Assembly (NCBI GenBank): GCA_030426395.1
Contig: JAUHYE010000022.1
Location: forward strand, 1-39,165
Reading direction: 5' to 3'
DNA length: 39,165 nt
From: Phycisphaerae bacterium
GTDB taxonomy: Bacteria > Planctomycetota > Phycisphaerae > Phycisphaerales > UBA1924
Positions 10,502 through 32,199 of the stretch are shown in pieces (position 1 is the first letter of the stretch; each line of letters opens with the position of its first letter). Made by a program: the position numbers and the translations under genes. The notes under the pieces are model-generated. The model did not search any database, was not told the DNA's origin, and saw only the letters and a list, made by a program, of their open reading frames with translations.

Positions 10502-10635
10502 GCCCGTTGCATCGGCGGGCGGCGCGCGGCGATCCAGTCGGAGCGCTCGAATGCTCAAAAAGAGTTGATTTGTTCGGGTGACGATCGGAAAACTGGCCCT
10601 CCGAGGCCTCCCGCACGCCCCATCCACGGCGTTTG

Positions 10636-10782
10636 GTCGACCGTTTGTCGCATCCGGTCGACCAACCGCGGCCCCGCGTCGACGGCTGGCGGCCGGGGGT
10701 CGACGGGCCGGGGGGCGGGGTCGACGGGCGATGGCGGGGGGTCGACCGCGGGTGGGCGGGCGTCGACCACCGGGCCGTCGAC
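10636..10782. repeat. Array of eight GTCGAC palindromes at 21-bp period
   Basis: GTCGAC cores begin at 10636, 10657, 10678, 10699, 10720, 10741, 10762 and 10777: six successive spacings of exactly 21 bp, then one of 15. Several cores extend to GGTCGACC. The 14-15 nt between cores vary in sequence and are GC-rich. The array sits in the 412-nt gap (10502-10913) between divergent genes. That gap otherwise holds only the promoter of the plus-strand gene near 10842-10869. No protein with normal composition is encoded across it. Confidence 0.9.
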
Positions 10783-10841
10783 CATCGCGCGGCGGCGGGG
10801 TGAGCGGGGCCGGGCCGCACCAGATTTCACGAAATGGCCTG

Positions 10842-28404: not shown

Positions 28405-28527
28405 GGCTCGTTCTCCTATAGATGGGTCCATGTCGATCCGCACCCAATGTACAGGAAAGCTGGGGGGGCAGTCAAGACAATCTGGGATATCTGGTGAATA
28501 TATTTTCGCTGCTTTCTCAGATTCCTC

Positions 28528-28556
28528 TTGCGTCGCGACCCGGTTTGCGTCAAAAT
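28528..28556 (+). promoter_or_regulatory. Promoter of the propeller dockerin gene, leaderless type
   Basis: TTGCGT (28528-28533), a 17-nt spacer, then CAAAAT (28551-28556), 6 nt before the ATG at 28563. No Shine-Dalgarno sequence. AT-rich DNA lies just upstream (near 28497-28507). Confidence 0.5.
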
Positions 28557-28562
28557 GGTTGC

Positions 28563-29978
28563 ATGAGTATCCCTAAGTCACTCCTCGCCGCCCTGCTCCT
28601 CGCCCCGTTTGCCCACCTGACAATGGCCCAGGGCGACCCCTGCGAAACACAGTTCATCCCGGGTTTCGTGGGGCTCAGTGCCCAGTTCGCCGGAGACATC
28701 GACATCGATGGCGACCACCTGCTCTTTAGCGACTACACCGCGTACACCCTCTGTTCCACGCCGGACCCCTTCGAATGCTCGGCTGGGGCCGTGTTCGCGT
28801 ATCGCTGGATCGAAGGCCGGTGGGCGCACGTCCAGACCATCGTCCCGCCGGATCTGGCCTATTACGAGGGCTTCGGGGCCGGCGTGCACGTGGAGGGCGA
28901 CACGATGATGGTCTCAACAAGGAAGGACGGCGGACGGATCGACATGTACGCTTACGACCAAGGACTTGGGCAATGGATCGAGAACGATCGCATCTACCCC
29001 CCCCCCGCCAGCTACGAGTACATCTTCGGGGGCGAACTGGCCTTCGACACCGGGCTGGCGATCGTGTTCGAGACCAACGTGGTCGCAGGCCAGCCGCCGC
29101 TGCTGCACCGCTACGTGCTGGGCGACGAGGGCTGGGAGTACCGCGATACGTTCGAGGGGCCGACCAGTCCGGTGGGCAACTACGGCAAAAACATCAGGAT
29201 GAACGAGGAGTGGATCATCGTCAGTGCCAGCGCGGACCGAACGCACGCCGTTAATCACGGCTCGGTATACGTGTACCGCCGCAACCCCGACGACACGTTC
29301 GAGTTCTTCCAGAAGCTGCTTCCACCCGAGGTGGAAGCGGGCGGCGCGATCCCGAGCGGGTTGTGGTTCGGAACATATGTCGGCTTCGATGGGCGCACGC
29401 TTGCCATCTCGGCACCGGGAACGAGCCGTGACTTTGATAATCAGGGCGTCGTCTACACCTACGAGTTCGATGGCCAGGCTTGGACGCTTCGCCAGGTGCT
29501 GACCCACAGCATGGCCGGCGAGCTCCATGCCGATACCTTCGGTTTCGGCCTGAGCGTCGAGGGCGACACGCTGGTGGCGGCGATGGGCCGCACGTTCAGC
29601 CGCGTCGCGTTCGTCTTCCGCCGCGGCGTGGACGGCGTGTGGCGCGAGGTGGCCGTGGTGCGACCGACGCACCCCGAGGCCAGCGCCTTCGGCTTCAAGA
29701 GCGTGGTCGAGGGCGATCGCATCGTGATCGGGGCTCCCGAGCAATACGCGCCCGCTCCGAGCTACACACGGTACGGCGCGGCCTACGCGTACGACGTAAG
29801 CTGCCTGGTCTGCCCCCCCGACCTCGACGCCGACGGCTTGCTGACCATCTTCGACTTCCTGACCTTCATGAACCTCTTCCAGGACGGCGACGCCCAAGCC
29901 GATTTCGACGGCGACGGCGAGTTGACACTCTTCGACTTCCTCGCTTATCAGACGGCGTTCGACGCGGGGTGCGAGTAG
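28563..29978 (+). CDS. Secreted propeller-like GC-type dockerin protein
   Basis: A 471-residue exported protein. The signal peptide covers about residues 1-22 (ending LTMAQ). The main domain (about 25-410) has six or more blade-like repeats of the form VxGDTMMVSTR, YxYDQGLGQWIE, FDGRTLAISAPG, VEGDTLVAAMG and VEGDRIVIGAPE. Strands such as GSVYVYRR, GVVYTYEFDGQAW and GAAYAYDV lie between them, a pattern typical of FG-GAP-like or integrin-type propellers. The last 57 residues are a GC-type dockerin (DLDADGLLTIFDFLTFMN, then DFDGDGELTLFDFLAYQT), opened by Cys and closed by Gly-Cys-Glu. Probably an extracellular or surface-anchored binding protein. The start at 28563 is supported by the promoter 6 nt upstream and by the signal peptide. 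Confidence 0.87.
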   Translation: MSIPKSLLAALLLAPFAHLTMAQGDPCETQFIPGFVGLSAQFAGDIDIDGDHLLFSDYTAYTLCSTPDPFECSAGAVFAYRWIEGRWAHVQTIVPPDLAYYEGFGAGVHVEGDTMMVSTRKDGGRIDMYAYDQGLGQWIENDRIYPPPASYEYIFGGELAFDTGLAIVFETNVVAGQPPLLHRYVLGDEGWEYRDTFEGPTSPVGNYGKNIRMNEEWIIVSASADRTHAVNHGSVYVYRRNPDDTFEFFQKLLPPEVEAGGAIPSGLWFGTYVGFDGRTLAISAPGTSRDFDNQGVVYTYEFDGQAWTLRQVLTHSMAGELHADTFGFGLSVEGDTLVAAMGRTFSRVAFVFRRGVDGVWREVAVVRPTHPEASAFGFKSVVEGDRIVIGAPEQYAPAPSYTRYGAAYAYDVSCLVCPPDLDADGLLTIFDFLTFMNLFQDGDAQADFDGDGELTLFDFLAYQTAFDAGCE

Positions 29979-30132
29979 CTTCGCTTGCTCGGGCGGAGCC
30001 CTCGGCGGCGCGAGTTGGTAGGAGCGGGAGGGCTGGAAGGGTGAAGGTCCGGTAGGGTGCGAAGGAAGGGGTGCGCGCCGTTCCCGGACGGTCCGGATAT
30101 CAAAAACCGCCCTGAGAGGCCGGAGCGAACGA

Positions 30133-30480
30133 TGCGCTCGGCGCAGCGGTTGTCTGCGGCGGCGCAGCGCTCTCCTGCGCCGCCGCAGCGGAAGTTTGTC
30201 GATCCACAAACAGTCGCTGCGCTACCACAAACATCCGCTGCGCCGGCGCAGAACTCCGCTGCGCCGCCGCAGGGATTCGCTGCGCCAGCGCAGGAGTCCG
30301 CTGCGCCGGCGCAGGGGTTCGCTGCGCCGCCGCAGGGGTCGCTGCGCCAGCGCAGCGGTTCGCTGCGCCGCCGCAGGAGTCCGCTGCGCCGGCGCAGCGA
30401 AAGTTTGTGAGAGCGCAGCGTTCTCCTGTCGATCCACAAACTTCCGCTGCGCTCACGCGGAACCGTCCTGCGCGGCCCCG
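30133..30480. repeat. Array of about seventeen palindromic units at 21-bp period
   Basis: Units begin at 30133, 30155, 30176, 30197, 30218, 30239, 30260, 30281, 30302, 30323, 30343, 30364, 30385, 30406, 30427, 30448 and 30469; all but two spacings are exactly 21 bp (one 22, one 20). Most units carry a TGCGCC-N-GCGCA-like imperfect palindrome followed by a variable spacer often ending TCCGC or TTCGC. Two units (30197, 30427) have TTTGT...ACAAA arms around CGATCC instead. Two more mix the halves: 30218 has TGCGC left and ACAAA right, 30406 has TTTGT left and GCGCA right. The array fills much of the 778-nt gap (29979-30756) between convergent genes. Open frames across it are low-complexity heptad repeats and are not credible proteins. 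Confidence 0.92.
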
Positions 30481-30500
30481 GGCTCGCGCGGGCGATGGGG

Positions 30501-30735
30501 AAAGCCCGGCAGGGGTGGCGCGGGCGATCGAGATTCTCGGACGCTCGTCTCCGCGACACTCGCGTCTCTTAGTAAGGAAGAAAGCCCGGGCTCGCGCCCG
30601 GGCCTCGTTGGGGTCAGCGTTCACGAGAGTGAAAGCCCAGGCTCGCGCCAGGGCCTCGTTCCTACGAGGCCAACGCACGGCCGGAGAAAGCCCAGGCTCG
30701 GGCGCCAGGGCCTCGTTCTGACGAGGCCAACTCAC
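30501..30735. repeat. Degenerate hairpin repeats, three copies and a fragment
   Basis: AAAGCCC(A/G)GGCTCG units begin at 30581, 30632 and 30687, with a partial copy at 30501. Each reads AAAGCCC.GGC, a short loop, GCC.GGGCCTCGTT, forming a GC-rich stem. In the last two copies a second hairpin, CCTCGT..ACGAGG, follows directly. They may be terminators for the two converging genes or a REP-like intergenic repeat. Confidence 0.75.
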
Positions 30736-30756
30736 CGCCGGAGGCGGTGACTAAGG

Positions 30757-32199
30757 CTAATGCTCGACGCGCTTGCCCAGCAGCGGGCCCACGCGGTCGA
30801 CCAGGCGGTTGAGCGTCTGGCGGTCCTTCGCCTCGGCGTTGAGGCGGAGCAAGGGCTCGGTGTTGCTCATGCGGACGTTGATCCACCAGCCTTCCTTCTG
30901 GAAGCAGTCGATCGTGATGCCGTCCAGGTTGTCGACGACCGCGTCGTCGGTGGCGATCTCCTCCTCGAGCTTGTGGATCGCCTCCTGGGGCTCTTCGTTC
31001 GTGAAGTTCAGCTCGCCGCTCTGGGTGTAGCGGGCGATGGGCTTGATGAGCTGGCTGAGCTTCTTCTTGTTGCGGGCCAGCAGGCCGAGCACGGTGGCCA
31101 TCGCGATGGCCCCCGAGTCGGCATTAAAATTGTCCTGGAAGTAGAAGTGACCGGAAAGCTCGCCGCCGAAGACGGCGTCGTGCTCGGCCATCGCGGCCTT
31201 CATGAACACGTGGCCCACGCGGCCGCGCACGGGCTTGCCGCCGGCCTTGCGCACGTCCTCCTCGACGGCCTTGCTGGAGCGCAGGTCGTAGACGATCGCG
31301 GCGCCCGGGTGGCGCGTGAGCGCGTCGGTGGCCAGGAGGGCCGTGAGGTGGTCGCAGCCGATGATCATGGCCTCGTCGTCGACGACCATGCAGCGGTCGG
31401 CGTCGCCGTCGAAGCAGAAACCCACGTCGGCGTCGTTCTCGATGACGGCCTCCTGGGTCATGCGCATGTTGCTTTTCACCAGCGGATTGGGCGCGTGGGC
31501 GTACTCGCCGCTGGTGTTGTCCATGTTGACGGTGATGAGCTCGATGCCGCAGTCCAGGTACCCTTCGAGCAATTCGCCCTTCATGCCGAAGACCTTGGGG
31601 ATCATCGTGCCGGCCATGGCGTTGGAGGCGTCGACGACGACCTTCAGGGGTTTATTGCGCGTCGCGGGCCCGCCCTCGCGCACGAAGTGCCGCACGTGCT
31701 TGGCGTAGGGCTTCCACAAGTCCCGCTGCTCGACGCGGCCGCTGGGCTCGTCGATGGTGCGCATGTCGGCCATGGCGGCGTGCTTGCGGATGTCGGCCAG
31801 GCCCGTCGCCTCGCCGATGGGCCTGGCTTTCGGCCCGGCGATCTTGAAGCCGTTCCAGTTGGGCGGATTATGGCTGGCGGTGACCATGACGCCTCCGGCA
31901 CAACCAAGATGATTAATCGCGAAGTAGATCATGGGCGTGTCGACGAGCCCCAGGTCGATGACGCTGACGCCGGTGCGGGTGAGCCCGTCGATGAGCTGCT
32001 CGGTGAGCGTGGGGCCGCTGTCGCGCATGTCGCGCCCGACGACGACGGTGCGCATCATGGGGGTGTTCTCGCCGGTGGCCTTGGCGACCTCGAGCACGAA
32101 CCTGCCGGTGCCCACGCCCACCTGCCAGGCCATGCGATCGGTGAGCAGGTCGGGGTAGGTTCCGCGGATGTCGTACGCCTTGAAGACTCGTCCCAGCAT
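30757..32199 (-). CDS. Phosphomannomutase/phosphoglucomutase
   Basis: A 480-residue alpha-D-phosphohexomutase that interconverts hexose 6- and 1-phosphates for surface polysaccharide, lipopolysaccharide or glycogen synthesis; cytoplasmic. The four-domain signature is complete: N-terminal FKAYDIRG, catalytic TASHNPP with phospho-Ser109, metal loop DGDADR (264-269), sugar-binding GGELSGH (about residue 347), and phosphate-binding SNTEPLLRLNAEA near the C-terminus. The length fits ManB/AlgC-type enzymes (about 450-480). Sequence alone does not separate mannose from glucose preference. A Shine-Dalgarno sequence (GGGAG) precedes the ATG at 32199. The protein ends VEH, converging on the repeat-rich gap. 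Confidence 0.92.
   Translation of the reverse strand: MLGRVFKAYDIRGTYPDLLTDRMAWQVGVGTGRFVLEVAKATGENTPMMRTVVVGRDMRDSGPTLTEQLIDGLTRTGVSVIDLGLVDTPMIYFAINHLGCAGGVMVTASHNPPNWNGFKIAGPKARPIGEATGLADIRKHAAMADMRTIDEPSGRVEQRDLWKPYAKHVRHFVREGGPATRNKPLKVVVDASNAMAGTMIPKVFGMKGELLEGYLDCGIELITVNMDNTSGEYAHAPNPLVKSNMRMTQEAVIENDADVGFCFDGDADRCMVVDDEAMIIGCDHLTALLATDALTRHPGAAIVYDLRSSKAVEEDVRKAGGKPVRGRVGHVFMKAAMAEHDAVFGGELSGHFYFQDNFNADSGAIAMATVLGLLARNKKKLSQLIKPIARYTQSGELNFTNEEPQEAIHKLEEEIATDDAVVDNLDGITIDCFQKEGWWINVRMSNTEPLLRLNAEAKDRQTLNRLVDRVGPLLGKRVEH

Follow-up and report, generated by a model that had tools for sequence, protein, structure and literature searches.

A candidate family of leader-anchored, structure-forming 21-bp tandem arrays in one genus of Phycisphaerae

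On balance, we regard the intergenic tandem array described here as one copy of a non-coding, leader-anchored and structure-forming 21-bp minisatellite family that belongs to a single genus, probably of the Phycisphaerales, as judged from one distant match (27% identity) in a named MAG of that order and from the GC-type dockerin proteins. It lies in a 39,165-nucleotide stretch of a Phycisphaerae genome (hereafter the window; Table 1), and in each element a conserved leader some 50 bp long has roughly 9–25 tandem 21-bp units on its 3′ side. Arrays of this class have in common the leader and the period, and most of them are also self-complementary.

Table 1. Positions of the array, its leader and neighbouring features in the window
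Feature	Position	Strand	Remarks
Leader GTCCGGATATCAAAAACCGCCCTGAGAGGCC...	30090..30139	+	Match to leader model R2; array on 3′ side; 3′ end of leader overlaps unit 1
Tandem array, 17 units of 21 bp	30133..30489	.	One spacing of 22 and one of 20
Units 4 and 5: TTTGTCGATCCACAAAC type and hybrid TGCG..CACAAAC type	30197..30238	.	Roughly mirrored by units 14–15
Units 14 and 15: hybrid TTTGTG..GCGCA and TGTCGATCCACAAAC types	30406..30447	.	
Leader-side neighbour: FG-GAP_2 protein with GC-type dockerin domain (NF041540)	28422..29978	+	
Array-side neighbour: phosphoglucomutase/phosphomannomutase	30757..32199	-	Present in 7/7 genus genomes, including own
TTCTCGGAC (inward GTCCGAGAA) past far end of array	30534..30542	-	Also at copies A2, A3 and G004; no general tail
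Second, weaker array of 21-bp period with unrelated GTCGAC-centred units	10610..10806	.	Palindromy non-significant (p 0.92)

The window array and copies of its unit family

The 17 units begin at 30133, 30155, 30176, 30197, 30218, 30239, 30260, 30281, 30302, 30323, 30343, 30364, 30385, 30406, 30427, 30448 and 30469, with spacings, in order, of 22, 21 (eight times), 20 and 21 (six times; n = 16). These starts agree with the first-pass annotation, which had counted 17 units with 14 of 16 spacings of exactly 21 bp and the other two of 20 and 22 bp. It had also proposed phasing by two helical turns, and this is borne out by the near-strict spacing, 21 bp being two turns of B-DNA. The extent that it gave (30133–30480) stands for the array, which runs on to 30489, but not for the start of the element, as the leader begins at about 30090. 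Each unit is made up of a TGYG-N4-CRCA core (13 bp in unit 1) and a nine-base linker, and unit 17 is degenerate, keeping six of the eight core positions. Identity at lag 21 is 0.60, and among lags 5–89 it exceeds 0.45 at 21, 42 and 63 only. A second half-site type, TTTGTG/CACAAA, appears in units 4–5 and 14–15 as rough mirror images.

The two-fold symmetry of the cores, proposed earlier from inspection, is real: dyad pairing in the best phase is 3.62 of 5, compared with at most 2.44 in 200 dinucleotide shuffles, and it is also significant (p = 0.002) against a column-permutation null that retains the tandem structure. The suggested capacity for hairpins is likewise upheld by fold prediction, in which the RNA forms one long branched hairpin (−243 vs. 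−177 kcal/mol for shuffles, z −12.0), with units 4–5 pairing with units 14–15 across the array, and the DNA fold reaches z −12.8. Shuffling the order of the units barely weakens the fold (z −1.0).

The convergent gap that holds the array is 778 bp long, and its intergenic position is confirmed by the flanking genes, which end at 29978 (+) and 30757 (−). Between the array and the phosphoglucomutase gene, at 30581–30743, lie hairpin-type repeats, AAAGCCCGGGCTCGCGCCCGGGCCTCGTT, and a 57-bp tandem pair; hairpins similar to these repeats are found near the A3 and G004 arrays and the array at the phosphoglucomutase gene (PGM) of G003. The second array of the window sits upstream of a dockerin-type gene. 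A search of the window against Rfam gave no match at the gathering threshold.

Copies of the window's own unit family occur elsewhere in the same genome and in congeners. Two contigs of the own genome, C57 and C128, end inside array pieces that are 97% identical (L036 1–262 and L037 1–147), which are probably one array split by the assembly; arrays with contig ends inside them probably break short-read assemblies. A further copy lies at C57:9185–9495, and the leader side of the own-genome copies, where visible, is 3′ of an FG-GAP dockerin gene. In the congener G004, an array that alternates TGTGGATCCACA and TGCGCTAGCGCA at 21 bp likewise follows an FG-GAP dockerin-type gene. The TGYG-N4-CRCA core is retained within this family (A1–A3, G004, G006), and its central bases are often self-complementary.

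These features, namely near-strict phasing at 21 bp, dyads kept throughout the unit family and self-complementary centres, are what would be expected of a phased operator array, in which a dimeric protein binds each dyad and all dimers lie on one face of the DNA, coating or looping it in the manner of centromere, iteron or nucleoid proteins. We nevertheless consider such an array unlikely as an account of the class, for reasons that come from arrays with other units.

The leader and the arrays that it predicts

The leader comprises GTCCGGATA and half or all of a terminator-like hairpin, AAACCGCCCTG..GGGCGGTTT; the full AAACCGCCC..GGGCGGTTT hairpin is present in many leaders, and the first half alone in others. 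Flanks of arrays with unrelated units have the GTCCGGATA and AAACCGCCC-type motifs in common. In a 999-kb sample that included the window, GTCCGGATA occurs five times, three of them at arrays, the window's among them. The flank motif had 16 matches in 6.9 kb of array flanks vs. 5 in 62 kb of control gaps, an enrichment that is partly circular because the motif was first seen in the same flanks. Neither flank motif was within 150 bp of 11 of the 23 census arrays.

Two independent searches made no use of the array itself. Comparison of a 62-bp window leader with seven genus genomes, the own genome included, led to seven new fetched loci, five of which have clear arrays with lags of 21, 42 or 63; the remaining two are a weak case (L192) and a locus that, judged by eye, retains no more than two or three units (L194). 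The second search used R2, a sequence-only model built from 16 leaders, which had 202 matches at E ≤ 1 in the seven genus genomes. Among these, 29 of 30 returned loci were examined, 15 of them new; the known loci L203 and L215, read at a wrong place (contig starts), do not count among the 15. A 21- or 42-bp array lies within about 420 bp downstream of 13 of the 15 new loci and upstream of none (0/15), compared with 11 of 300 random stretches; the other two new loci, weak matches in G001, had no 21- or 42-bp array. The leader therefore predicts an array. Irrespective of unit sequence, almost every clear leader locus has a period of 21 or a multiple of it. When lags 9–70 were compared at 20 leader loci, a multiple of 21 scored best at 18 of them and at 16 of the 17 whose identity was at least 0.55; 119 of 123 comparisons between units showed zero offset.

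The leader hardly occurs beyond the genus. At E ≤ 1e-4 it is found in all seven genus genomes (1–12 matches per genome, and 10–52 at E ≤ 1, where some matches count once for each strand) vs. 2 of 156 other genomes of the family. These two out-of-genus matches resemble ordinary terminator hairpins, one being without an array (L230) and the other having only a weak lag-42 signal (L231).

A model with terminal repeats was tested and dropped. A far-end motif was found at 4 of 22 leader loci; since there is no general tail, the element seems one-sided. This bears on the possibility of a mobile element of the BrickBuilt type, i.e., a MITE-like unit with a trapped minisatellite and a transposase that acts on the leader, an explanation that overlaps with our preferred reading. 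The combination of a leader with a mostly intergenic minisatellite, the many leader matches per genus genome and the homologous copies at different loci would all fit such mobility, but the rarity of the far-end motif speaks against a general tail or terminal inverted repeat, and the Y1 transposase family, the criterion for RAYTs, is present in 2 of 7 genus genomes and absent from the own genome and four others. We therefore treat transposition of this kind as a possibility towards which we do not lean.

Period, self-complementarity and coding across arrays

A covariance model of the window unit (R1) matched 13 of 163 genomes of the family. Seven of 12 fetched regions hold 21-bp arrays (G006 twice, G003, G012, G020, G073 and G071), mostly of differing units; the matches in G012:C1, G018, G093, G086 and G121 were dropped, as they look by eye like coding sequence. 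Within the family, at least five further genera (G012, G020, G022, G071, G073) also have 21-bp arrays, and none of these genomes has a leader match at E ≤ 1e-4. The G071 array combines two unrelated palindromes in one shared phase. In G004, many units at L170 (about 1120–1390) are different 12–14-bp palindromes joined by a similar AGCCGTT-like linker. As further particulars of single loci, the 18-unit 21-bp array of G022 (L039 6018–7087) stands directly upstream of a short ORF that resembles, by eye, part of a tyrosine recombinase, and the far ends of two G006 arrays (L075, L076) run into C-rich, CCCCAACCCCATAACCC-like tracts common to both loci.

A scan for palindromic arrays of seven units with periods of 14–45 over 481 kb, mostly loci fetched for matching the window array or R1, returned periods 21 and 42 only, and also an unexpected own-genome array of unrelated sequence. 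Because a unit model could bias the period, the census stretches were taken regardless of arrays and scored by plain lag identity (≥0.58 over a 130-bp span, periods 9–60). In 400 kb of the own genome together with the window, 15 of 19 arrays had period 21 or 42 (11 of 15 after removal of the two window arrays and of two entries of one previously known array), as did 6 of 8 in 400 kb of G004. In a wider census (lag identity ≥0.56, periods up to 70), multiples of 21 accounted for 13 of 20 arrays in the own genome, 7 of 10 in G004 and 4 of 6 in G003; an 80-kb sample of G006 had no arrays, nor had a Markov control. In the eight genomes sampled outside the genus, the corresponding figures were 0 of 6 for five genera from the same family (400 kb) and 1 of 6, with period 63, for three other families (240 kb). 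TRF, which allows indels, gave multiples of 21 in 11 of 18 (own), 6 of 16 (G004), 4 of 5 (G003) and 0 of 1 (G006) cases, and in 0 of 2 and 1 of 5 for the same two outgroups. Tandem repeats of period 81 form a separate class (TRF, at least 80 bp: own 4, G004 7, G003 1, G006 1).

Sequence is much less constant than period. When unit profiles of 30 arrays were compared, 22 of 435 pairs were similar at z > 3, and these fall in a few families; the A1 profile spans its 20-bp spacing, which weakens its similarities. In a set of 31 arrays that had been detected through their phase, exact phasing holds for 243 of 247 unit comparisons, while identity of adjacent units ranges from 0.40 to 0.86, i.e., 14–60% of positions differ.

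Arrays of unrelated sequence have self-complementarity in common. Measured on the plus strand against controls in which the 21 columns were permuted alike in all units, it is in excess over 34 arrays (Stouffer −13.4), and also in 17 census arrays (−7.2) and in seven arrays found through the leader or orthologs (−7.1), with little or no excess in 11 of the 34 (z above −1). For 19 arrays from the census or found through orthologs, dyad pairing is 0.654 vs. 0.575 (sd 0.014). By dyad phase alone, 6 of the 11 arrays found with the model and 5 of the 19 from the census are significant at p < 0.05. The natural unit order folds slightly better than shuffled orders (21 arrays, Stouffer −3.8). Compensatory covariation within units shows no excess (37.5 vs. 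30.4, sd 5.6, in a phase-selected null), and a Stouffer score of 6.95 for covariation was withdrawn once phase selection had been controlled.

Taken together, these comparisons weigh against the operator array. Unrelated units behind similar leaders, different palindromes within one array (G071, G004) and several arrays without a significant dyad are all difficult to reconcile with it, as is the fact that the arrays are not kept beside orthologous genes. The proposal that the array is a series of sites for a dimeric protein holds in its dyads and its phasing, but not as one sequence-specific dimer for the whole class, since the same sequence would then be needed at all loci. Related arrays without core conservation, which had been named beforehand as a finding that would count against the proposal, do occur across the class, whereas the core is kept in the A1–A3, G004 and G006 family; likewise, a single recognition sequence in phase holds within the A1 family and fails across the class. 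Judged from the sequences, a single sequence-specific dimeric protein is unlikely for the class and possible within the window's own unit family, and a protein may read the dyads or the phasing rather than the sequence.

A period of 21 also corresponds to seven codons, and several frames are open and read as heptads; thus, the arrays might be degenerate protein-coding heptad repeats. We consider this very improbable. Coding selection on heptads, another finding named in advance as counting against the first-pass interpretation, was absent from the 31 arrays to which a codon-substitution test was applied (Fisher p 0.79 and 0.46), and spacings of 20 or 22 bp break the frame in A1, A2, A3 and G022. 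When genes were predicted by a simple method based on GC3, 8 of 19 census arrays were free of any predicted ORF, 10 shared sequence with what were judged to be weak ORFs or upstream extensions of genes, and one (L108) lay inside the end of a real-looking gene. The arrays are mostly intergenic, in any orientation and without coding selection.

Turnover, possible mechanism and relation to known systems

An orthologous gene can have an array beside it in one genome and none in another. For three such genes, the 1.5 kb on the side that matches contains an array in 2 of 6, 1 of 7 and 2 of 7 genus genomes, although the gaps compared are not always strictly the same because the next gene often differs; where two genomes carry arrays beside the same orthologous gene, the units are dissimilar. 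Conversely, similar units recur at non-orthologous loci (L121, L119 and the G003 PGM locus). The arrays show no clear orientation preference relative to genes, the flanking genes of 22 leader arrays being 11 plus and 11 minus on the leader side and 8 plus and 14 minus on the array side. Proximity to dockerin genes is uneven: a dockerin-type gene adjoins 11 of the 22 leader arrays, as judged by eye, and such genes number 47 of 811 overall; in the census, 7 of 23 arrays adjoin one vs. 27 of 186 control gaps.

Turnover beside orthologous genes, recurrence of unit families at non-orthologous loci, the lack of a clear orientation preference and the decayed remnant at L194 would also be expected of a plain selfish satellite, in which a hairpin-prone leader triggers tandem duplication by slippage or template switching, and the product has no function. 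Dyad symmetry would then be a by-product, since strands that fold back amplify best. This alternative also overlaps with our preferred reading and has some plausibility, but we doubt it in its plain form: indels are few among diverged units, which is unexpected for freely drifting DNA, and the same period everywhere needs a ruler.

For the minisatellite family that we favor, we infer that the working property would not be a recognized base sequence but the capacity of a single strand, either a transcript or DNA during replication, to fold up as one long hairpin or a series of hairpins. Units would be copied and homogenized in 21-bp steps next to the leader, and drift would therefore give each locus a unit of its own without loss of length or dyad tendency. 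By analogy with REP and BrickBuilt sequences, the array would likely be a structured, propagating spacer between genes, and any effect on the neighbors would likely be exerted through folding, termination or RNA stability. The near-strict spacing of 21 bp among diverged units exceeds what hairpins need and would fit a constraint at the level of the duplex. Folding alone leaves this spacing unexplained, and thus either a copying ruler or a duplex-level partner that reads the two-turn phasing is needed. Tentatively, and with more doubt than belief, we put forward that a leader-directed process writes repeats that are fixed in length (21 bp), preferentially self-complementary and free in sequence, in which case the leader would be the start site, and an enzyme or a replication intermediate would be the 21-bp ruler.

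To our knowledge, bacterial minisatellite families known so far spread one unit sequence. Length and structure are separated from sequence in the present arrays, and it can therefore be asked what sets the length of a repeat. If a process counts 21 bp, tandem repeats would be made here in a new way, and if selection sets 21 bp, the arrays would function in the structure of the genome or the transcript, in a group of bacteria with little experimental biology.

CRISPR loci consist of a leader and a directional array of palindromic repeats, with identical repeats, unique long spacers and cas genes. Our arrays are similar in that a leader is followed by a directional array of palindromic repeats, and differ in having linkers of about 9 nt in place of unique long spacers and a unit sequence that varies by locus. 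No Cas1 match was found in the own genome (93% complete), and one of the seven genus genomes has a match; the first-pass judgment that the array is not CRISPR is sustained by the 21-bp unit and by this result for the own genome. The leader-first, directional architecture might also suggest a guide-like array that is processed into 21-nt RNAs, but matches of 90 own units to DNA outside the arrays in the own sample were no better than those of reversed controls, no phage match was found for the one array compared, and Cas1 had no match in the own genome, so that we regard guides as extremely unlikely. The single comparison with phage sequence was thus negative, and a single comparison with plasmid sequence yielded two weak matches.

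Among the matches listed in a search of the open literature by title and the start of the abstract, which covered neither subscription journals nor preprints, there was no description of such arrays in Planctomycetes. PARCELs, as the passages cited describe them, are tandem repeats with dyad symmetry that are dispersed in the genome, as our arrays are, but they are coding repeats of 75 nt (PMC2996958), compared with 21 bp and no coding selection in the 31 arrays tested here. The GTAG- and CGTC-tagged REP/BIME sequences are likewise extragenic, hairpin-forming palindromes that are sometimes clustered, at least in the parts of the account used here (PMC3733652), whereas our arrays are tandem at 21 bp; no GTAG or CGTC tag was noticed by eye in the unit lists. 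Prokaryotic satellites in general are short tandem repeats, some of them intergenic, and transposition of non-coding satellites was reported to be rare; the combination of a shared leader, a fixed period and a changing unit is absent from the passages of this survey that were available (PMC6749651).

The nearest known system is BrickBuilt of Porphyromonas gingivalis, a minisatellite-MITE with a 23-nt tandem unit, present in 19 copies in one strain, whose copies have, in the excerpts drawn on, one unit sequence throughout, a tail and terminal inverted repeats (PMC4596501). Like BrickBuilt as described there, the present arrays combine a conserved leader with a spacerless tandem unit of similar length, are intergenic and occur in many copies; a leader and an intergenic tandem minisatellite are found here, while a tail or terminal inverted repeats and a uniform unit are not. 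The arrays thus differ from BrickBuilt in lacking a general tail and in carrying a unit that differs at most loci, while the period of 21 is kept across the genus.
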